Positions 4,036 to 13,548 of a DNA stretch of 64,000 bases are shown here, in pieces (within the stretch, counting starts at the first letter, position 1; each line of letters opens with the position of its first letter). Source of the stretch: Acidobacteriota bacterium (GTDB taxonomy: Bacteria; Acidobacteriota; Vicinamibacteria; Vicinamibacterales; UBA823); contig PCAK01000027.1 of the NCBI GenBank assembly GCA_002730525.1, positions 1 to 64,000 on the forward strand. Direction: 5' to 3'. The position numbers and the translations under genes are program-made. The notes under the pieces were generated by a model. It saw only the letters and a program-made list of their open reading frames with translations, was not told where the DNA came from and did not search any database.

Positions 4036-5784
4036 CTATTCGATCTTTCGCAGGGCGGCCCTGGTCGCGGGTGCAGCGGTCGGGGCTTCGACGAGTTCCC
4101 GTCGTAGCCGCTCCAGGTCTCCCGCCTCATCCACGTCGTGCCACGATTCGACCTGCACGACATCGATCCCCACGCGTTGCGCGGCCGACAGCGTATCGGC
4201 CAGCGCGAAGGATGTGCTCCATCGGACTCCGCTGAAGAGATCCGGCACGACATTCGGATCGGCGATCGCCAGGCCGAGCAGATAGTAGCCCCCATCGTCC
4301 GATGGGCCGATGACGGCGCTGCCCGCAGGCGCCAGGCTCGCGACAGCCTCTTCGAGTGCGCGAGTGGGTAGCGTCGGGAGGTCGGATCCGACGATGACGA
4401 TGCGGTCGAAACCGGCGCTGAGGAGGTCCTCGAACAGCGCGCGTTCCCGCGCGCCGAGGTCGGCGCCGCGTTGCGCCAGCAGCTCGTCGGGCCGCACGCC
4501 GACCGCGTCGAACCCCTCGGCGCCTCCATCGGGCGTGTAGGCCAGACGCAGTGCGACACCGTCGATCGCGCGGCAGGTGCGCACCATGTCAGCGACGAAA
4601 GCGGCGTAGAGGTCGGCGCGGACGCGCGGGTCGGGAATGGCCGAGGCCAGACGCGTCTTGATCGAGCCCGAATCGCTGGGGGAGCGCGCCATGATCGCGA
4701 TGACGGTGCGTGCGGGCTCGGCGGCCCGTTCGGACGGTGTGGCGGAGGCGTCGCCGCGGGCCGCCGACAGGCCTCGGCCCAGGACGATCGGGAGACCGAT
4801 CGCGAGCCACGACAGCATCCGGGCCTTCCGGACGATGGCCATCGTCACACCCGTCGCGGTGCCGAACTGCAGCAGGTCGGCGAACAGCCCGGTGCCCGCC
4901 TCGTCCACGCCGACGCGCAGCGGGACGAATTTGAACGCCACCATGATCATCCGATTGACCGACTCGAAGAGAAACGCGTCGAGCCACGACGGCGATGAAC
5001 CGGTGACGAGCGCCAGGACCACGTAGGTCTCGGCGAGCGCGGCAACGTGGAAGAGCGCATCCAGCAGCGCGATTGGTCCGAGGCCCGCCTTCGTGCGCGG
5101 ATAGGCCGCATGCATCCGAGCCTCGAGCCGTTGCAGCCAGCCGAGGCCGGTGCCGATCCATCCCGCGCGCCAGCGGGCCGGGAGTTTCGCGAGGGTCCGG
5201 CCGGCGAACGACAGTCGGCGCCAGAGCACCGTATGCAGCGTGAGCACGACGAGCGCCAGGCCGCCGACGACCCCGCCGCCGGCGATCCACCAACTCGTGC
5301 CCGTGCCCAGCCGGGCGACCAAGGCGATGAGGCCGGCCGCGAGTACGATCGCGACGGACAGCGAGTAGAACAGGTTTTCGACGGCCAGGGCGGCCAGCGC
5401 TCCGGACGCCGGCAGACGCCGGGTGACCAGGGCGACCTTGGCCGGTTCCGAGACGAGCAGTCCGAGCGGCGTCACGTTGCCCAGCGCGTCGCCGGCCACC
5501 GTCGCGACCAGGGCCTCCCGAAAGGTCAGACGCCCCGGGGGCTCGACGCACAGCGTCCAGGCCAGGGCGCGCATCGCGAAGCGGAAGCCCGACAGGGCCA
5601 GCACGAGCAGGAACCCCCACCCGACGCTGGCGACGCCGGCCGCGACCTCCGCGAGCCCCGCGCGGCGAACGAAGATGACGAACAGCAACGCGCCGATCGC
5701 CATCGCGAGGATCTGTCCGATCGCTCGGAGCGGCGACCCCCGGCGTGGACGAGACGGTGCCGGCTCGGCTGGCGATGAGGTCAT
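4036..5784 (-). CDS. Flippase-like membrane protein fused to a DUF2064 glycosyltransferase
   Basis: 582 residues with two parts that are normally separate proteins. Residues about 20-350 hold eight or so membrane segments of the lysylphosphatidylglycerol synthase/YbhN-like (flippase-like) family, with the family signatures ALGNVTPLG and VPLRVGVDEAGTG. Residues about 365-570 are a soluble nucleotide-diphospho-sugar transferase-fold domain of the DUF2064/TIGR04282 type: KTRLA near the N-terminus, VGSDLPTLP, and GPSDDGGYYLLGL. The fusion suggests transfer and membrane handling of a lipid- or membrane-linked product by one polypeptide; substrate unknown. No frameshift is present at the joint, which is a short Ala/Glu-rich linker. 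The gene is convergent with recR and divergent from the next gene. Confidence 0.85.
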   Translation of the reverse strand: MTSSPAEPAPSRPRRGSPLRAIGQILAMAIGALLFVIFVRRAGLAEVAAGVASVGWGFLLVLALSGFRFAMRALAWTLCVEPPGRLTFREALVATVAGDALGNVTPLGLLVSEPAKVALVTRRLPASGALAALAVENLFYSLSVAIVLAAGLIALVARLGTGTSWWIAGGGVVGGLALVVLTLHTVLWRRLSFAGRTLAKLPARWRAGWIGTGLGWLQRLEARMHAAYPRTKAGLGPIALLDALFHVAALAETYVVLALVTGSSPSWLDAFLFESVNRMIMVAFKFVPLRVGVDEAGTGLFADLLQFGTATGVTMAIVRKARMLSWLAIGLPIVLGRGLSAARGDASATPSERAAEPARTVIAIMARSPSDSGSIKTRLASAIPDPRVRADLYAAFVADMVRTCRAIDGVALRLAYTPDGGAEGFDAVGVRPDELLAQRGADLGARERALFEDLLSAGFDRIVIVGSDLPTLPTRALEEAVASLAPAGSAVIGPSDDGGYYLLGLAIADPNVVPDLFSGVRWSTSFALADTLSAAQRVGIDVVQVESWHDVDEAGDLERLRRELVEAPTAAPATRAALRKIE

Positions 5785-5858: not shown

Positions 5859-6470
5859 ATGCTCCCGGCTTTGCAGCTGCCTGTCGCCATCATTCTACTT
5901 GGCGGCGGGCTGCTGGCGTGCTTTTTCGGCTACCGGCTCTTCCGTTTCGTGCTCGCGGTCTACGGGCTCGTGGCCGGAGCGGTCGTCACCCTGCAGTTCC
6001 TCGGCAGCGCCGAACCGTGGGTGCTGGTCGCCGCGGTCGTCGTGGGCGCGCTGGTTGGCGGGCTGGCGTTCATCGCCGTCTACTTCATCGGCGTCGCCAT
6101 CGTCGGCGCCGGACTCGGTGCGCTCATCGTCAACCTGGCCTGGTCACAGCGCGCGGAGGATCCGCACGTCCTGATTGTCGTGCTGTTCGCCATCGTCGGT
6201 GCGTTCGCCGCCTTGGTCCTCCAGCGCTACGTCATCATCGTGGGCACGTCGTTCGGCGGCACCTGGATGAGCGTTGTCGGCGGGCTGGCCCTGACGGGCG
6301 ATCCCGAGGCCGTCGCGGCCATCGGCACCCTGAGCGGCTGGGTGACCTACCCGCTCGACCGCGTCATCGCCCAGCGGGAGGTGCTGATCGCGTGGCTGAC
6401 GGTCGGGCTCGTGGGGGTCGTCGTCCAGTTGTGGAGGACCAGCAAGGCGCGCGGCAAGGGGAAGAAGTGA
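5859..6470 (+). CDS. DUF4203/TMEM198-like membrane protein
   Basis: 203 residues with seven predicted hydrophobic helices of small residues (Gly, Ala, Val), beginning LPVAIILLGGGLLACFFGYR, which is typical of the DUF4203 family (Gly-rich helices, a FGYR-like turn after the first). The C-terminus is a short Lys-rich cytoplasmic tail. The biochemical role of the family in bacteria is not established. A CATAAT box at 5845-5850 lies just before the ATG. The gene is monocistronic, between a divergent fusion gene and tRNA-Asn. Confidence 0.7.
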   Translation: MLPALQLPVAIILLGGGLLACFFGYRLFRFVLAVYGLVAGAVVTLQFLGSAEPWVLVAAVVVGALVGGLAFIAVYFIGVAIVGAGLGALIVNLAWSQRAEDPHVLIVVLFAIVGAFAALVLQRYVIIVGTSFGGTWMSVVGGLALTGDPEAVAAIGTLSGWVTYPLDRVIAQREVLIAWLTVGLVGVVVQLWRTSKARGKGKK

Positions 6471-6969: not shown

Positions 6970-7485
6970 ATGTCGCGACTCCGCCTGACCCCGACCGCCC
7001 TCGTCCTCGCCGCCGCCGTCGTCTTCCTGGGCGTGCTGATCAGCGCTTGCTCGTCCGACGTCGGCGCGAGCCCCGACCAGCCGGTCGCCTTCTCTCATCT
7101 GATCCACGGCGAGAACGAGATCGACTGCGCCTACTGCCACGAATACGTCGACCGCTATGCCGTCGCCGGCATCCCGCGGGTCCAGGTCTGCATGGACTGC
7201 CACGAGTTCATGGAACCCGAGGCGCCGAGTGCGGATCTGGACCGGCTGGTCGAGTTCTCGGAGGCTGGCGAGGAGATTCCGTGGGTTCGTCTGTACGAGC
7301 TGCCCGACTACACCCACTTCAACCACCGGTGGCATATCGCCGCAGAGGTCGAGTGCCAGACCTGTCACGGTGAGATCGGCACGAGCGAGCGCGCGACGCG
7401 CCACATGGTCTACGACATGGACTGGTGCCTGACCTGCCACGAGGAGCAGGAGGCGTCGGTCGACTGTCTGACCTGCCATACATGA
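6970..7485 (+). CDS. actA: Pentaheme cytochrome c lipoprotein, ActA-like
   Basis: 171 residues. A signal peptide ends in lipobox LISAC (C27), so the mature protein is a lipid-anchored periplasmic cytochrome. Five CxxCH heme sites are visible at 53-57 (CAYCH), 74-78 (CMDCH), 129-133 (CQTCH), 153-157 (CLTCH) and 166-170 (CLTCH), with upstream histidines such as FSHLIH that can be distal ligands. This is the architecture of ActA in alternative complex III and of cytochrome c7/c3-type subunits. The stop overlaps the next start by four bases (ATGA), so it is the first gene of the cluster. It would accept electrons from the Fe-S subunits and pass them to cytochrome c or an oxidase. Confidence 0.88.
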   Translation: MSRLRLTPTALVLAAAVVFLGVLISACSSDVGASPDQPVAFSHLIHGENEIDCAYCHEYVDRYAVAGIPRVQVCMDCHEFMEPEAPSADLDRLVEFSEAGEEIPWVRLYELPDYTHFNHRWHIAAEVECQTCHGEIGTSERATRHMVYDMDWCLTCHEEQEASVDCLTCHT

Positions 7486-9707
7486 AGCGCCGAGAGTTCC
7501 TCAAGAGTTCGATCGTTGCCGGCACCGCCGGCGTGCTGCTCGATGCGTGCACGCCGCCAGGCTCGGAGCAGATCATCCCGCTCCTTATCCCGGAGGAGCA
7601 GTTCATCCCGGGCGTCGAGGAGTTCCACGCGACGACCTGTTTCGAATGCTCCGGCGGCTGCGGTCTGCTGTCGCGGAAGATCGACGGACGCCTCGTCAAG
7701 GTCGAGGGGAACCCGGCGCATCCCATCGCCCAGGGCGGCAGCTGCGCACGTGGCCAGGCGCTCCCTCAGGCGATGTATCACCCGGATCGACTGCAGTCTC
7801 CGCTCGTCCGCGAGGGCGCGCGCGGCGAGGGCCGGTGGACCGAGATCTCGTGGGACGATGCCCTCGACCGCCTGACCACCGAGCTGACCGGGTTGAGCTC
7901 CGACCCGTCCGGGCTGGCGTTCCTGACCGGCCAATTGCGCGGCCACCGATCGGCCCTCGTCGAGCGATTCGCGGCGGGCTTCGGCGGCGCCCGCCACTGG
8001 GTGCACGAGCCATTCGGCGACGCCGCCGTGCGCCGGGCCCATCTGCTGGCGGCCGGCATCGACGCCTTCCCGGCCCACGACCTCGAGCACGCCAACTACG
8101 TGGTGACATTCGGTGCGGCGCTGGTCGAGGGATCGCGCTCGCCGGTGAGGTTCGGGCGAGGCCTCGGCCATCTGCGGCGCGGTCGGCCGGGTCAGCGCGG
8201 CAAGCTGGTGGCGATCGGGCCGTATCTCTCAGTGACCGCGGCGCACGCGGACGAGTGGGTCCCGGCGCGTCCTGGCAGCGACGCGGCCCTGGCGCTCGGC
8301 CTCGCGCACATCCTCGTTCGCGACGGCCGCCATGACGAGACCTTCGTGACCGATCGTGCGACCGGCTTCGAGGCGTTCCGTGAGCGTCTACTGGCCGACT
8401 ATGCACCCGAGACGGTGGGCGAGGCGACCGGTGTGCCGGCCGAGCAGATCGAGCGGCTGGCGCACGAGATGGCCGACCATGGTCCGGCCCTCGTCGTGGC
8501 TGGCGACGCGGCCGTGACCGGACCGGACGGCCTGGCGACGGCCCTGGCCGTCGCACATCTCAACGCGCTCTTGGGCGGCTTCGGCCGGCCCGGCGGTCTC
8601 AACTTCGATCCGCCGCCGCCGTTTGCGGCGTGGCCAGCGCTCGAGGCGGCCCAGGATTCCGAGAGCGAGCCCGACAGCGCTGACAGCAATACGCCGCGAC
8701 CGCTCGTCGAGGTGCTCGTCGACCAACCCGCCGGCGTCGGCGCGCTGCTCGTCGCCGCCACGAATCCGTTCTACACGCTGCCGCCCGCGTCGGGCGTTGC
8801 CGATCTCGTCGCAGGGATTCCCTTCGTCGCGGCGTTCGGATCGTTCGCCGACGAGACGACGCGGTGGGCGGACCTTATCCTCCCCGAGCCGACGACGTTC
8901 GAGCGGTTCGACGACGACGTGCCGGCTCCCGGCGTCGGCCGGGCGATCGCGTCGCTGTCCGGACCGGTCTTCGTCCGGCCGCTGTATGACACCCGGTCGA
9001 TGCCAGACGTCCTGCTGCAGGTGGGGCAGCGGCTGGGTGACGACATGGCGGCGGCGTTGCCGTGGGAGACCTACGAAGACGCGCTGCAGGACGCGTGGGC
9101 CGGGCTGCACGACACGCAGCGCGGATCGGTCGTCGAAACGACCGCTGGGCGGTTCTGGCGTAGCGCACTCGAGTCGGGTGGCTGGTGGGATGACGCGCCA
9201 GAAGAACCCGCGCCGGTCGAGTTCGCGACGTCCGATGGCCGCTACCAGTTCGATCTGGCGCCCTTGTCGGCGACCTCTGGGGTGGTGGCGACGACGGCGG
9301 ACCGGCCGTTCATCTTGCACGTCTATCCGTCGCTGGCGTTCGGCGACGGCCGGAGCGCGCATCTGCCGTTCCTGCAGGAGTTGGCCGATCCGATGACCGG
9401 CGTCCGCTGGGGATCGGTCGTCGAATTGAGCCACATGGCGGCCGAGGAGCACGATCTGGTCGAAGGTGACGCCGTCGTGGTGGCGTCGGCGCAGGGTGAG
9501 CTGCAAGCGCGGGTGCGGGTCGTGGCCGGCCTCAGGCCGGAGGTCGTCGCGATCGGCGCCGGGCAGGGCCACACCGACTACGGCCGCTACGCGACCGATC
9601 GGGGTGCGAATCCGCTGGCGCTGCTCGCGCCACCCGATCCAGCCGACGGCGCGGAGCTGGCCCTGGTGGGCACGGCTGTCAGCCTCAGGAAGCTCTATAC
9701 GCTGTGA
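7482..9707 (+). CDS. TAT-exported molybdopterin oxidoreductase-fold subunit, ActB1-like
   Basis: 741 residues. The N-terminus KRREFLKSS is a twin-arginine signal and LLDAC near residue 21 could be a lipobox. A [4Fe-4S] motif C-x2-C-x3-C-x27-C follows (CFEC, SGGC, GGSC), then the CRG-like ARGQALPQAMYHPDRL segment, central FATGADF-equivalent region (VTFGAALVEG) and a C-terminal molybdopterin-dinucleotide-binding-like beta-barrel. The region where catalytic relatives have a Cys, Ser or Asp Mo ligand reads HWVHEPFGDAAV, resembling alternative complex III B1 domains, which carry no Mo. ATG 7482 overlaps the actA stop. In most complexes of this type the B1 and B2 parts are one fused ActB; here they are separate genes. 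Probably a structural or electron-transfer subunit; true catalysis is not excluded. Confidence 0.82.
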   Translation: MKRREFLKSSIVAGTAGVLLDACTPPGSEQIIPLLIPEEQFIPGVEEFHATTCFECSGGCGLLSRKIDGRLVKVEGNPAHPIAQGGSCARGQALPQAMYHPDRLQSPLVREGARGEGRWTEISWDDALDRLTTELTGLSSDPSGLAFLTGQLRGHRSALVERFAAGFGGARHWVHEPFGDAAVRRAHLLAAGIDAFPAHDLEHANYVVTFGAALVEGSRSPVRFGRGLGHLRRGRPGQRGKLVAIGPYLSVTAAHADEWVPARPGSDAALALGLAHILVRDGRHDETFVTDRATGFEAFRERLLADYAPETVGEATGVPAEQIERLAHEMADHGPALVVAGDAAVTGPDGLATALAVAHLNALLGGFGRPGGLNFDPPPPFAAWPALEAAQDSESEPDSADSNTPRPLVEVLVDQPAGVGALLVAATNPFYTLPPASGVADLVAGIPFVAAFGSFADETTRWADLILPEPTTFERFDDDVPAPGVGRAIASLSGPVFVRPLYDTRSMPDVLLQVGQRLGDDMAAALPWETYEDALQDAWAGLHDTQRGSVVETTAGRFWRSALESGGWWDDAPEEPAPVEFATSDGRYQFDLAPLSATSGVVATTADRPFILHVYPSLAFGDGRSAHLPFLQELADPMTGVRWGSVVELSHMAAEEHDLVEGDAVVVASAQGELQARVRVVAGLRPEVVAIGAGQGHTDYGRYATDRGANPLALLAPPDPADGAELALVGTAVSLRKLYTL

Positions 9708-9719
9708 AGGTGAGCTGAG

Positions 9720-10436
9720 ATGGCGGACTGGGGGATGGCGATCGACGTCGATCGGTGCGACGGGTGCAACGCCTGCGTCGTGGCCTGCCGCACGGAGAAC
9801 AACGTGCCGCCGGCCGGGCCCGATCAGGCCGCCATCGGCCGCACGATCGAGTGGCTCCGCGTCGAGCGCCACGTCGACGGAGAGTTCCCGAACGTTCGGG
9901 TCCGGTTCGTTCCCGTCATGTGCGTCCATTGCGACGAGGCGCCGTGCGCCGCCGTCTGCCCGGTGTCGGCGACCTACGAGACCCCCGACGGCCTGAACGC
10001 CCAGATTCACCCGCGGTGCATCGGCACGCGCGCGTGCGCGCAGGCCTGTCCCTACACGGTGCGGCATTTCAATTGGGGTGAGCCGAGCTGGGAGGCGCCG
10101 CTCGAGCAGACGATCAACCCCGACGTCGCGGTGCGCTGGAAGGGCATCATGGAGAAGTGCTCCTTCTGCGTCCAGCGGATCCGGCGCGCCGAGGACACCG
10201 CCCGCGGCGAGGAGCGCGAGGTCGCCGACGGCGAGGTGCAGCCGGCCTGCGCGCAGGCGTGCCCGGCGCAGGCGATCGTCTTCGGCGATCTGGACGATCA
10301 CGAGAGCGCGGTGTCGCAACTGGCGGAGAGCCCGCGGGCCGAGCGGCCGATGGAAGAGCTGGGCACCGGCCCGCGCGTCTTCTATCTGAAGGAGGGGGAC
10401 TGGCGTGGCAGCGTCCGACCGCGATCGAGCGATTGA
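9720..10436 (+). CDS. Four-cluster ferredoxin subunit, ActB2-like
   Basis: 238 residues with four cysteine groups: CDGCNACVVAC (13-23), CVHCDEAPCAAVC (68-80), CIGTRACAQAC (100-110) and EKCSFCVQRI followed later by CAQAC. In the third group the second cysteine is Thr103, the pattern seen in alternative complex III ActB, where one cluster is a [3Fe-4S]. NPDVAVRWKGIMEKC is also ActB-like. It conducts electrons between the NrfD subunit's quinol site and the hemes on the periplasmic side. It carries no signal of its own and probably travels with the TAT-exported B1 subunit. The start follows AAGGTGAG. Its 3' end overlaps the next gene by 32 bases. Confidence 0.9.
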   Translation: MADWGMAIDVDRCDGCNACVVACRTENNVPPAGPDQAAIGRTIEWLRVERHVDGEFPNVRVRFVPVMCVHCDEAPCAAVCPVSATYETPDGLNAQIHPRCIGTRACAQACPYTVRHFNWGEPSWEAPLEQTINPDVAVRWKGIMEKCSFCVQRIRRAEDTARGEEREVADGEVQPACAQACPAQAIVFGDLDDHESAVSQLAESPRAERPMEELGTGPRVFYLKEGDWRGSVRPRSSD

Positions 10437-11739
10437 AGATTCGCTGATCCGTCCGGTCTTCGAGACGAGCCGGACCGTCTGGATCGTCGTCGGCCTCCTG
10501 CTGGCGGTGATCGCGTTCGGCGGCTACCAGTGGGCCCGCCAGCTGGGCGAAGGCATGGTCATCGCCGGGATGAACCAGCCGGTCTACTGGGGCCTATACA
10601 TCACGAACTACGTCTTCTTCATCGGCATCAGCCACGCCGGGACGCTCATCTCGGCGATCCTCCGGCTGACCCAGGCCGATTGGCGCCGGCCGATCACGCG
10701 CGCGGCCGAGGCGATCACCGTTTTCGCGCTGCTGATGGGCTCGAGCAACGTCCTCTGGCATCTCGGTCGACCCGAGTTGATCTACGTGCCGTTGCTGTAC
10801 CCGCAGCCGCTCTCACCGCTCATCTGGGACGTCGTCTGTATCTCGCTCTACCTGATGGGCAGCATCACCTATCTGTACCTGCCACTCATCCCCGACCTGG
10901 CGATCCTGCGCGACCGTAGCCCGCGGCTGCGCTGGTTCTATCGTGCGGCGGCGCTCGGCTGGGAGGGCACGCCCGAACAGCACGCGTGGCTCGAGAAGCT
11001 GATCGGTATCATGGCCGTCGCGATCATTCCGATTGCCGTGTCGGTGCACACGGTCGTGTCGTGGGTCTTCGCGATGAACTTGATCCCGATGTGGCACTCG
11101 GCGATCTTTGGGCCCTACTTCGTCGTCGGCGCGATCTTCTCGGGAATCGCGGCGCTGCTGATCGCGATGGCGATTCTGCGCAAGACCTTCCGGCTCGAAG
11201 CCTACTTCCGGCCGATCCACTTCAACAACCTCGGGCTGTTGATGCTGACGATGGCCTGCCTCTGGTTCTACTTCACGTTCGCCGAGCACATGACCGTCTG
11301 GTACGGCAACGAGCCAGACGAGATGGCGGTGCTCAACTCGCGGCTTACGGGCCCGTTCTCGACGGTGTTCTGGTCGATGGTCGCCTGCTGCTTCGTCATC
11401 CCGCTCGGCATCCTGTCATTCCGGAGGTTGCGCACGATCGCCGGGACGGTCGTCGCGTCGTGCTTCGTCGTCGTAGGGATGTGGCTCGAGCGCTACATCA
11501 TCGTGATCAGTTCGGCGTCGTATCCGCGCTCCGAGGCGATGTGGGACGCGGGCCGCTACACGCCGTCCCTGGTCGAGATCGGCCTGACGGGCGCTCAGTT
11601 CGCGGCGTTCGCGCTGCTCTACATCGTGTTTGCCAAGCTGTTTCCGCTGGTCTCCATCTGGGAGATCAAGGAGGCTGGCGAGCAAGACGTCAAGGCTGTG
11701 ACCGATGTCCTCGACGCGCAGCGCACCGAGGAAGCGTGA
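10405..11739 (+). CDS. actC: NrfD/PsrC-type quinol-binding membrane subunit, ActC-like
   Basis: 444 residues, about ten membrane helices, polysulfide reductase NrfD family. Segments typical of ActC are VYWGLYITNYVFFIGISHAG and RPITRAAEAITVFALLMG near residues 54-115, and HTVVSWVFAM with HSAIFGPYFVVGAI further on. This subunit holds the quinol site in the membrane. GTG 10405 is preceded at a good distance by AAGGAGGGGG (10388-10397) and lies inside the 3' end of the preceding gene. The C-terminus is a short charged tail ending near EVKAVTD-like residues. Part of the same transcription unit as the upstream three genes. Confidence 0.92.
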   Translation: MAASDRDRAIEDSLIRPVFETSRTVWIVVGLLLAVIAFGGYQWARQLGEGMVIAGMNQPVYWGLYITNYVFFIGISHAGTLISAILRLTQADWRRPITRAAEAITVFALLMGSSNVLWHLGRPELIYVPLLYPQPLSPLIWDVVCISLYLMGSITYLYLPLIPDLAILRDRSPRLRWFYRAAALGWEGTPEQHAWLEKLIGIMAVAIIPIAVSVHTVVSWVFAMNLIPMWHSAIFGPYFVVGAIFSGIAALLIAMAILRKTFRLEAYFRPIHFNNLGLLMLTMACLWFYFTFAEHMTVWYGNEPDEMAVLNSRLTGPFSTVFWSMVACCFVIPLGILSFRRLRTIAGTVVASCFVVVGMWLERYIIVISSASYPRSEAMWDAGRYTPSLVEIGLTGAQFAAFALLYIVFAKLFPLVSIWEIKEAGEQDVKAVTDVLDAQRTEEA

Positions 11740-11750
11740 CGCCGCTGCCG

Positions 11751-11759
11751 TGCTAGAAT
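11751..11759 (+). promoter_or_regulatory. Extended -10 element before the monoheme cytochrome gene
   Basis: TGC-TAGAAT forms an extended -10 (TGn plus hexamer at 11754-11759), 56 bases upstream of ATG 11815. It suggests that the cytochrome gene can be transcribed separately from the four upstream genes. Confidence 0.4.
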
Positions 11760-11814
11760 TTCTGACAGCGGCCATGATGGAGAGACCGGCCGTAGGGTGG
11801 AGGCGACGACGGTG

Positions 11815-12222
11815 ATGCAAAAGTTGATGGTGGCGGCGGTGGGGGTGTTCCTCGGCTCGGTGCTCCTCACGGCGGCTCAGGACCAGGTTCAGGAAATCTG
11901 GGAGGTGCCCGAAGAGGAGCGGGCGGTAGAGAATCCGATTGCGTCCGACGATGACGTCCTGGCCGAAGGCCAGCGGCTGTACGAGCGCAACTGCCGGATG
12001 TGCCACGGTGAGACCGGCCTGGGCGACGGCCCGGCGACCGCGCGGATCAAGCCGGCACCGCGGGACATCACGACCGCCGACGCGCAGGACCGGATGACCG
12101 ACGGTGAGATGTTCTACAAGATCACGGTCGGCAAGCGTCCGATGCGCGAGTTTGAGAGCCGGCTCACCGAGGACGAGCGCTGGTCGGTCGTGCACTATCT
12201 GCGCACCTTGCGCGCCGGGTAG
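11815..12222 (+). CDS. Monoheme cytochrome c, ActE-like
   Basis: 135 residues. A signal peptide (MVAAVGVFLGSVLLTAA) is followed by a short acidic linker and one class I cytochrome c domain: CRMCH near residues 59-63, GLGDGP, and a distal methionine in the RMTDGEMFYKI or KRPM region. Such small cytochromes are part of alternative complex III (ActE) or its soluble acceptor. ATG 11815 was chosen because the signal peptide begins there; a GTG at 11797 in frame would add six residues. actD and actF homologues, usually in such clusters, are not found before or after. A strong hairpin follows. Confidence 0.8.
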   Translation: MQKLMVAAVGVFLGSVLLTAAQDQVQEIWEVPEEERAVENPIASDDDVLAEGQRLYERNCRMCHGETGLGDGPATARIKPAPRDITTADAQDRMTDGEMFYKITVGKRPMREFESRLTEDERWSVVHYLRTLRAG

Positions 12223-12244
12223 GCCGGCGCCGGCGGAGAAGTGA

Positions 12245-12270
12245 TGAGGCGGGGCCCCGGTCCCGCCTCA
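12245..12270. terminator. GC hairpin after the respiratory cluster
   Basis: A perfect 9-bp stem (TGAGGCGGG, 12245-12253, with CCCGCCTCA, 12262-12270) closes an 8-base loop 22 bases after the cytochrome stop. It has no T-run. It probably ends or protects the upstream transcript. Confidence 0.5.
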
Positions 12271-12297
12271 GTCATGTACGGCCCACGCGCGGGGCGG

Positions 12298-12303
12298 TAT
12301 AAT
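12298..12303 (+). promoter_or_regulatory. -10 box of the arsJ-like gene
   Basis: A perfect TATAAT lies 21 bases before ATG 12325, directly after the terminator-like hairpin. No clear -35 hexamer. Confidence 0.5.
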
Positions 12304-12324
12304 CCACCTCTTTCCAGCAGAGCG

Positions 12325-13548
12325 ATGCAGATGCGTGGCTACGCGGTCATCACGGTGTCCTACTGGGGCTTCACGCTGACCGACGGCGCGCTGCGAATGC
12401 TCGTCCTGCTGCACTTCCACACGCTCGGCTACACGCCGCTCGACCTCGCACTGCTGTTCCTGCTGTACGAGTTCTTCGGCGTCGTCACGAACCTCTTCGG
12501 CGGATGGATCGGCTCGCGCGTCGGCCTCCGGCGGACGCTCTTCGCCGGCTTGGCCTTGCAAGTGGTCGCGCTCGTGATGCTGTCCGGCGTCGACCCGACC
12601 TGGGTGCGGTGGCTCTCGGTCGGCTACGTGATGGCGGCGCAGGCGCTCTCGGGGATCGCAAAGGATCTGACGAAGCTCAGCTCGAAGAGCGCGGTCAAGC
12701 TGCTGGTGCCCGACGACGACGATTCGCGGTTCTTCCGCTGGGTTGCCTGGCTCACCGGCTCGAAGAACGCGCTCAAGGGACTCGGGTTCCTGATGGGCGG
12801 CGTCCTGCTCGGCTCGACCGGCTTCGCGGCGTCACTCTGGGTGATGGCGGGCGCGCTGACCCTGGCCCTGATTGGTGCCACGGCGACACTCCGCGGCGAC
12901 TTGGGCAAGTCCAAGTCGTCGGCCCCGTTCACGCAGATCCTGTCGAAGAGCTACGAGATCAACGTGCTCTCGACAGCGCGGTTCTGCCTCTTCGGCGCGC
13001 GGGATGTCTGGTTCGCGGTCGGCCTGCCGCTCTTTCTGTACGACGTCGCCGGCTGGAGCTTCACCGGCGTCGGCGGCTTCCTGTCCGTCTGGGTCGTTGG
13101 CTACGGTGCGGTTCAGGCGGCGGCGCCCAGGTTACTGCAGCGCTACGGTGGCGCGGCGTCGGCGTCGCGCCACGCGCAGACCTGGGGCTTCGCGCTGGCC
13201 GTAGTCGCCGCCGCGATCGCTGCCGCGGTCTCGGCGGGGTTCTATTCGATCGTCTCGGTCGTGGGCGGCCTGGCGCTTTTCGGCATCGTCTTCGCCGTGA
13301 ACTCGTCGGTCCACTCGTACCTGATCCTGGCCTACACCGACGCCGACCGCGTGGCGGCGAACGTCGGCTTCTACTACATGGCGAACGCGGCGGGCCGGCT
13401 CGTCGGCACGCTGCTGTCGGGCGCGCTGTACCTCGCGGGCGGGCTGTCGGCCTGCCTCTGGGGCTCGACGCTGCTCGTCCTGGCGGCTGCCGCGCTGGCG
13501 CTGGCCCTGCCGTCCGTCAGACCCGATCCGGCGATGCGGCCGGCCTAG
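12325..13548 (+). CDS. arsJ: ArsJ-like major facilitator transporter
   Basis: 407 residues, about twelve membrane helices. The N-terminal segment YWGFTLTDGALRMLVLLHFH and the loop SGIAKDLTKLSSKSAVKLLVP closely match what is known of ArsJ, the exporter of 1-arseno-3-phosphoglycerate. Elsewhere arsJ sits beside a GAPDH-type gene that makes the arsenylated substrate and often an arsR regulator. None of these is here: the neighbours are a cytochrome and an amidase. The substrate may therefore be a related phosphorylated compound, or the partner may be encoded elsewhere. ATG 12325 was chosen over upstream in-frame codons because it follows the TATAAT and starts directly at the first helix. Confidence 0.75.
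   Translation: MQMRGYAVITVSYWGFTLTDGALRMLVLLHFHTLGYTPLDLALLFLLYEFFGVVTNLFGGWIGSRVGLRRTLFAGLALQVVALVMLSGVDPTWVRWLSVGYVMAAQALSGIAKDLTKLSSKSAVKLLVPDDDDSRFFRWVAWLTGSKNALKGLGFLMGGVLLGSTGFAASLWVMAGALTLALIGATATLRGDLGKSKSSAPFTQILSKSYEINVLSTARFCLFGARDVWFAVGLPLFLYDVAGWSFTGVGGFLSVWVVGYGAVQAAAPRLLQRYGGAASASRHAQTWGFALAVVAAAIAAAVSAGFYSIVSVVGGLALFGIVFAVNSSVHSYLILAYTDADRVAANVGFYYMANAAGRLVGTLLSGALYLAGGLSACLWGSTLLVLAAAALALALPSVRPDPAMRPA

Follow-up and report, generated by a model that had tools for sequence, protein, structure and literature searches.

We identified a gene cluster resembling a pared-down alternative complex III (ACIII) in the first 64,000 nucleotides of contig PCAK01000027.1 (the window), which belongs to an Acidobacteriota genome of 3.3 Mb that is 99.2% complete. 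Inspection of the open reading frames between positions 6970 and 12222 revealed five tightly packed genes, all on the + strand. With a probability of roughly 0.68, we read their products as a minimal five-subunit, molybdenum (Mo)-free complex of the ACIII type (ActA-B1-B2-C-E) that would link the quinone pool to a periplasmic cytochrome c by electron transfer. We class it as a variant of the ACIII type, short of ACIII proper, because ActD and ActF, which belong to the six subunits described as conserved, are both missing. The interest of the cluster lies in the absence of these two subunits throughout its family, an altered quinone pocket, and an outer position in phylogenetic trees. The genes and the sites within them that are discussed below are as follows.

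6970–7485, + strand: ActA-like pentaheme cytochrome c lipoprotein, 171 aa (five CxxCH; Cytochrome_C7, 44.9 bits; ActA 8k9e_A, 115 bits)
7482–9707, + strand: ActB1-like molybdopterin-fold protein (B1), 741 aa (Pfam domains; AlphaFold2 model; twin-arginine translocation signal RRxFLK)
7638–7745, + strand: FS0 motif of B1, C53-x2-C56-x3-C60-x27-C88 (alignment; all four Cys kept in 94/101 rows)
8013–8015, + strand: Gly178 of B1, in the column of the PsrA/ArrA Mo-ligand Cys (local-pair alignment)
9720–10436, + strand: ActB2-like Fe-S protein (B2), 238 aa (6f0k_B C-terminal domain, 234 bits)
10017–10049, + strand: FeS1 site of B2, Thr103 replacing Cys, predicted [3Fe-4S] cluster (motif comparison)
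10405–11739, + strand: ActC-like NrfD-family membrane subunit, 444 aa, start codon uncertain (NrfD, 123 bits; 6f0k_C, 238 bits)
11065–11067, + strand: Val221 of the ActC-like subunit, replacing quinone-pocket Asp253 of Rhodothermus marinus ActC (alignment)
11797–12222, + strand: ActE-like monoheme cytochrome c, 141 aa (one CxxCH; Cytochrome_CBB3, 47.8 bits; ATG at 11815 as alternative start)

Subunit identities

An earlier note, made from the sequence alone, had described an ACIII-like gene order with ActB split in two, and this description holds. The order, with open frames, recurs in the eight other genomes of the window's family, more than chance would give. Genes for A, B1, B2, and ActC occur in all nine family loci (9/9), and an ActE gene is present in the window and, by tblastn, in 8/8 relatives; conservation of the block across the nine genomes supports the ACIII-type reading. 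So does the comparison with solved structures, in which A, B2, and ActC are best matched by ACIII subunits. The ActA-like protein matches ActA chains at 88–115 bits, and B2 matches the C-terminal half of ActB at 187–234 bits, followed by ArrB (133.5) and PsrB (115). The membrane subunit matches ActC at 217–238 bits and then ActF at no more than 60 bits, with no PsrC match at E ≤ 1. The CxxCH motifs of the ActA-like protein lie at residues 53, 74, 129, 153, and 166, and its lipobox, ISAC, was recognized by eye. Together with the single CxxCH of the ActE-like protein, this gives the pentaheme and monoheme cytochromes of ACIII.

B2 contains 15 Cys, the number that one [3Fe-4S] and three [4Fe-4S] clusters would need. 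Published assignments list one [3Fe-4S] cluster for ActB and QrcC and four [4Fe-4S] clusters for PsrB and ArrB (PMC8076601, Table 1). By motif, the predicted set in B2 is that of ACIII rather than that of the Psr/Arr electron-transfer subunit, owing to Thr103 at FeS1. Thr also occupies this position in most Act-type loci, which again supports the ACIII-type reading. Cys is found there in the relatives' loci L076, L089, L090, L092, L108, and L121, as well as in L042, the same genome's other Mo-family group; Val or Ser stands there in five rows, and eight rows gave no match to the pattern.

Cofactor sites of B1

B1 carries the Pfam domains Molybdop_Fe4S4, Molybdopterin, and Molydop_binding, each above cut-off. 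The earlier note's central claim was that B1 keeps an Fe-S motif and appears to lack a Mo ligand, and an alignment of the window with 100 relatives (L048–L147; 101 rows) bears out both halves. In a local-pair alignment, Cys residues of PsrA, ArrA, and L076, L089, L090, and L092 all fall on Gly178 of the window; we take these to be the Mo ligands, as established for their families. Only five of the 101 rows have Cys in this column, namely L076, L089, L090, and L092, with a clear SIC motif, and L114, where it lies beside an indel. Aligned with PsrA, ArrA, and the four catalytic-like relatives, B1 has no Cys at the ligand position, and no conserved substitute was found, because the positions around Gly178 (178 and 179) vary freely within the family. 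With Gly in place of the ligand, B1 is very probably Mo-free. Its sequence and fold would thus make it a Mo-free molybdopterin-fold subunit like that of ACIII, without the Cys ligand to Mo or tungsten (W) of catalytic Psr/Arr proteins.

The four FS0 Cys (53, 56, 60, and 88) are kept in 94 of the 101 rows and are therefore probably under selection. Among the other seven, L109, L114, L119, L136, and L137 have none, L130 has two left, and L121 is a fragment. The four Cys are invariant in a further alignment, A2, whose 71 rows comprise the window and 70 of 80 loci (excluded were L109, L114, L119, L130, L136, L137, four fragments, and the L048–L067 rows). Fused ActB proteins from complete actABCDEF clusters are among the sequences that keep all four. 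The statement that known ACIII B1 domains lack the motif is correct for ACIII of solved structure; it fails for the wider group, in which split actB1 genes with CX2CX3CX27C were described in iron oxidizers (Kato et al. 2015, PMC4643136). Across a large group already known, most members retain FS0; the feature is not exceptional, and we rejected it as the mark of an exceptional cluster. The earlier interpretation therefore stands as to an ACIII-like, Mo-free complex and falls as to FS0 as its distinguishing feature.

An AlphaFold2 model of B1, built without cofactors, has a mean pLDDT of 88.6 and a pTM of 0.89. Among the matches listed from Foldseek's top chains, it is roughly equally close to ArrA (Z 38.3, rmsd 2.3 over 667 residues), PsrA (Z 37.0, rmsd 2.8 over 654 residues), and Roseiflexus ActB (Z 36.6, rmsd 2.5 over 597 residues). 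Sequence matches to solved structures run from PsrA (190 bits) and ArrA (164 bits) to ActB (at most 97 bits). B1 is less derived than the other subunits.

The membrane subunit and the absence of ActD and ActF

At 238 bits to 6f0k_C, the membrane subunit is recognizable as ActC, and its channel residues are largely retained. All 14 listed cytoplasmic half-channel positions (14/14) are identical to those of R. marinus ActC, as are five of six periplasmic ones, Y323 being Thr; this supports the ACIII-type reading. The quinone pocket is altered. The Asp253 position is Val in all nine family members, compared with Asp in 52/55 split, 28/28 fused, and 9/9 classical proteins, and a second pocket residue, Phe89, is Tyr.

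The earlier note reported actD and actF missing and called for a search of the rest of the genome, which agrees with it. ActD (Pfam PF11821) was found genome-wide in 0/9 family genomes, while the search gave matches in 49 of 51 other genomes from the same order, 48 of these 49 at the Pfam family's cut-off. A profile of 14 ActF sequences matched only the cluster's own ActC in 9/9 family genomes and gave matches in 29 of 31 other genomes, the majority of these matches being strong. The absence of ActF is based on this profile; the Pfam NrfD model misses 4/4 ActF controls and hence is no test of ActF. In the neighborhood survey, wherever enough sequence was available, ActD adjoins ActC in 47 of 48 split-type and 24 of 26 fused loci; loci with less than 1.2 kb beyond ActC (six split, one fused, two of low NrfD score) were set aside, and five loci with a low NrfD score were tallied separately. 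The sole split-type locus without an adjoining ActD, L108, is also without ActA, ActE, and ActF.

Comparison with known complexes

Split-ActB ACIII, encoded as actAB1B2CDE in Nitrospirales and actAB1B2CDEF in iron oxidizers, shares separate ActB1 and ActB2 subunits with the window. The iron-oxidizer ActB1 has the same FS0 motif as B1 (PMC4643136), and the Nitrospirales type likewise has no ActF, so a split actB without an accompanying actF is already published: PMC12342949 describes 47 Nitrospirales genomes with actABCDE, a split B, and no ActF or ActG, and credits its occurrence in other phyla to Refojo et al. 2013. Other sources describe ActB as fused or separate (PMC9386147) and some species as having ActC alone (PMC3543383). 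Split-ActB ACIII nevertheless keeps ActD, whereas the window's family does not (0/9) and has Val for the quinone-pocket Asp. L091, L075, and L142 are loci of this split kind. L142 comes from the genome of Mariprofundus PV-1, in which a molybdopterin oxidoreductase Fe4S4-region protein, which may or may not be the L142 product, was highly expressed during iron oxidation (Singer et al. 2011, PMC3179512). In the open-licence literature we found no description of a complex from which ActD and ActF are both absent. Beyond what we found in print, therefore, are the additional absence of ActD and the tree position.

Classical ACIII (6f0k, Rhodothermus; 6btm, Flavobacterium; 6lod, Roseiflexus; 8k9e, Chloroflexus) resembles the window's cluster in its ActA, B2, and ActC sequences, in its ActE-type monoheme cytochrome, and in the [3Fe-4S] FeS1 cluster and Mo-free B1 that are predicted for the window. 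It differs in having a fused ActB without the FS0 Cys and in having ActD and ActF. QrcABCD of sulfate reducers is also similar, with a multiheme cytochrome c, a Mo-free B subunit, a four-cluster C subunit, and one NrfD-type subunit. However, QrcA is a hexaheme protein (PMC8076601) compared with five CxxCH in the ActA-like protein, and QrcB has no redox cofactors (PMC13059093) compared with the FS0 motif of B1. The best NCBIfam names for the window's proteins are QrcB (329.5 bits; cut-off 440), QrcC (255.4; 400), and QrcA (80.2; 180). With all three under their cut-offs and five hemes instead of six, we rejected membership in Qrc; the QrcB cut-off was reached in 0/297 Acidobacteriota genomes searched. 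ArrAB and PsrABC share the B1 fold and FS0 motif but have a Cys ligand to Mo and four [4Fe-4S] clusters in the B subunit, and Table 1 of PMC8076601 lists no multiheme subunit for them. Wells et al. 2023 placed ActB beside ArrA, without ordering the losses in the passages covered (PMC10100899).

Phylogenetic position

Trees were built for B1 (a quick tree of 66 rows and a careful one of 47), ActC (47 rows), and a B1+B2+ActC concatenate (39 rows), all without true QrcB sequences and rooted on catalytic-like rows. The careful B1 tree omits, for length or redundancy, L042, L045, PsrA, L067, L126, L060, L059, L066, L100, and L145, along with L105, L125, L140, L134, L097, L108, L188, L136, and L079. 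The backbone is much alike across the B1, ActC, and concatenated trees. The window's family branches first in both the careful tree and the concatenate; ActD-bearing split Acidobacteriota follow, and after them split forms of other phyla. Fused ActB with FS0 comes next, with classical FS0-less ActB nested inside it; L082, a fused Nitrospirota row, lies outside the fused group. The quick B1 tree leaves the family, L052, and L050/L051 in no resolved order at the base. B1 falls inside no known catalytic family, and its place, with Arr/Psr-type catalytic proteins on one side and the remaining Act complexes on the other, fits the earlier suggestion of an intermediate between a Psr-type enzyme and ACIII.

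The family is sister to the rest with bootstrap/SH-aLRT support of 96/92 for B1, 90/96 for ActC, and 100/99 for the concatenate under a simpler model. In approximately unbiased (AU) tests, grouping the family with classical ActB was rejected (p = 3.2e-5 for B1; p below 1e-60 in a second AU test), and grouping it with all split Acidobacteriota was weakly rejected (p = 0.027). A single clade of FS0-less rows was also rejected (p = 6.5e-4), two changes being needed; in the tree, FS0 loss in Chloroflexota (L109 and L114 sampled) is separate from that of classical ActB. The Chloroflexota Act loci L109, L114, L119, L136, and L137, which are without the four FS0 Cys, have two ActC-like genes. The tree evidence favors, but does not secure, an outermost position of the family among Act complexes.

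Two sets of relatives fall near the base. L108 (7809–12306, Chloroflexota) encodes a B1 with four FS0 Cys and no Cys Mo ligand, together with a Cys-type FeS1; its branch in the concatenated tree lies immediately outside the Act complexes as a whole, and it could be a still earlier stage. L076, L089, L090, and L092 are Methylomirabilota and archaeal B1/B2/NrfD groups with the Mo-ligand Cys (SIC) and no pentaheme gene found. They are catalytic-like nearest relatives of the Act complexes, of unknown substrate.

Genomic surroundings

Upstream of the cluster, a TM198-family membrane protein gene (5859–6467) is present in 8/8 family loci by tblastn and is possibly a linked gene of unknown role. On the − strand, 4036–5784 encodes an LPG-synthase-like membrane domain fused to a TIGR04282 glycosyltransferase domain (143.7 bits; cut-off 134). 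Downstream, between the cytochrome gene and an amidase gene, lies an ArsJ-type organoarsenical efflux transporter (12241–13545; 559.8 bits, cut-off 400). Among the eight family loci, tblastn found ArsJ in the same-genus locus alone (L048) and not in the seven others, so the gene looks like an insertion outside the complex; a working arsenic enzyme, the idea prompted by this neighbor, was rejected on the same grounds. Elsewhere in the genome, L042 (8094–12325) has a PhsA-like Mo protein on one strand and Fe-S and NrfD proteins on the other, and contig C20 has an open frame for a multiheme cytochrome (L047, 9766–11124; 452 aa, eight CxxCH), away from the cluster. The genome also has genes for an aa3-type oxidase and for a nitrate reductase, the latter named from their translations; both are possible electron drains.

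Discussion

Gene content, motifs, the missing subunits, and the tree position are read from the sequences themselves; the cofactors, quinone type, direction of flow, and coupling described next are our inferences. In the complex we propose, quinol, probably menaquinol, would dock on the periplasmic face of ActC, by homology to ACIII. Electrons would pass first to FeS1, the cluster of B2 predicted to be [3Fe-4S], and exit through the five ActA hemes to ActE. B1 would bind no Mo and perform no substrate chemistry; it probably still holds one [4Fe-4S] cluster (FS0), a fifth cluster of the wire that would lengthen the FeS2–FeS4 side branch. ActD is the suggested coupling element of ACIII (PMC5928083), and the conformational coupling envisaged for that complex cannot operate unchanged where ActD and ActF are both missing. 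Energy conservation, if any, would fall to ActC by itself; this subunit retains nearly every residue of the proton half-channels.

Several observations weigh against this proposal. ActD and ActF are missing although they have been termed conserved across species (Sousa 2018, PMC5928083), the quinone-pocket Asp253 is lost, and the best named-family match for B1 and B2 is Qrc, albeit below cut-off. No oxidase gene was identified beside the cluster among the neighbors scanned. The same genome has a Rieske/cytochrome b complex, accompanied by a large multiheme protein, which leaves no obvious need for another quinol:cytochrome c enzyme; for the same reason, we rejected the cluster as the cell's only complex III. 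The root depends on few, long outgroup rows, the concatenated tree was computed under the simpler LG+G4 model, and the AU test does not reject a clade of the family with L050 and L051 (p = 0.085). Finally, only four of the nine family genomes are at least 90% complete, and a single absence could be a gap; nine agreeing absences of ActD and ActF are unlikely to be assembly gaps.

The p value of 0.085 leaves both primitive absence and secondary loss of ActD and ActF possible, and either is compatible with the ACIII-type complex proposed here. Secondary loss in the family has nearly an even chance in our estimation: the clade with L050 and L051 survives the AU test, one change is needed either way, and the family's stem branch is longish (0.37–0.63). 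Against this, all three trees place the family outside every ActD-bearing clade, and the adjoining outgroup is without ActA, ActD, and ActF. Tentatively, and at somewhat under even odds, the family may instead be the earliest-branching surviving Act complex, one that never had ActD or ActF and preserves the order of assembly as a non-pumping core ACIII with five Fe-S clusters. An Arr/Psr-like Mo enzyme would then have lost its Mo ligand and gained pentaheme and monoheme cytochromes and a [3Fe-4S] FeS1. ActD would have followed, then ActF, then the fusion of B1 with B2; FS0 would have been lost last, and separately in some Chloroflexota.

A less probable alternative, which we consider unlikely, is reverse flow as in Qrc, with ActE and ActA taking electrons from periplasmic cytochromes and ActC reducing menaquinone. 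The QrcB, QrcC, and QrcA names of B1, B2, and A would suit it, as would the bc-type complex already available for the forward direction. The four-subunit Qrc also has one NrfD-type subunit and no ActD (PMC13059093), and is described as electrogenic without pumping (PMC6303296, PMC13059093). The sub-threshold Qrc scores, the 0/297 genome count, the five hemes rather than six, and the ActC-like NrfD subunit argue otherwise.

That B1 is a genuine Mo/W enzyme with a non-protein or unusual ligand, such as Asp179, is very improbable: among the matches listed its fold is nearest ArrA and PsrA, an Asp directly follows Gly178 in the window, and the genome's nitrate reductase and further Mo-family genes point to synthesis of Mo cofactor, but positions 178 and 179 are both unconserved in the family, B2 has an Act-type FeS1, a pentaheme ActA is present, and the trees separate B1 from catalytic rows. 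The nitrate reductase genes also led us to drop a supposed lack of Mo cofactor in the genome as an argument.

For an ACIII-type complex of this composition, the early place of the family in the trees may show in what order ACIII gained membrane parts and lost metal centers. A B1 that is Mo-free yet FS0-bearing, as predicted here, would bear on how a molybdoenzyme was converted to an electron wire of respiration. Proton pumping by ACIII, and its mechanism, are unsettled matters for which a natural ActA-B-C-E complex without ActD and ActF would be a direct test object, through the question of its energy conservation.

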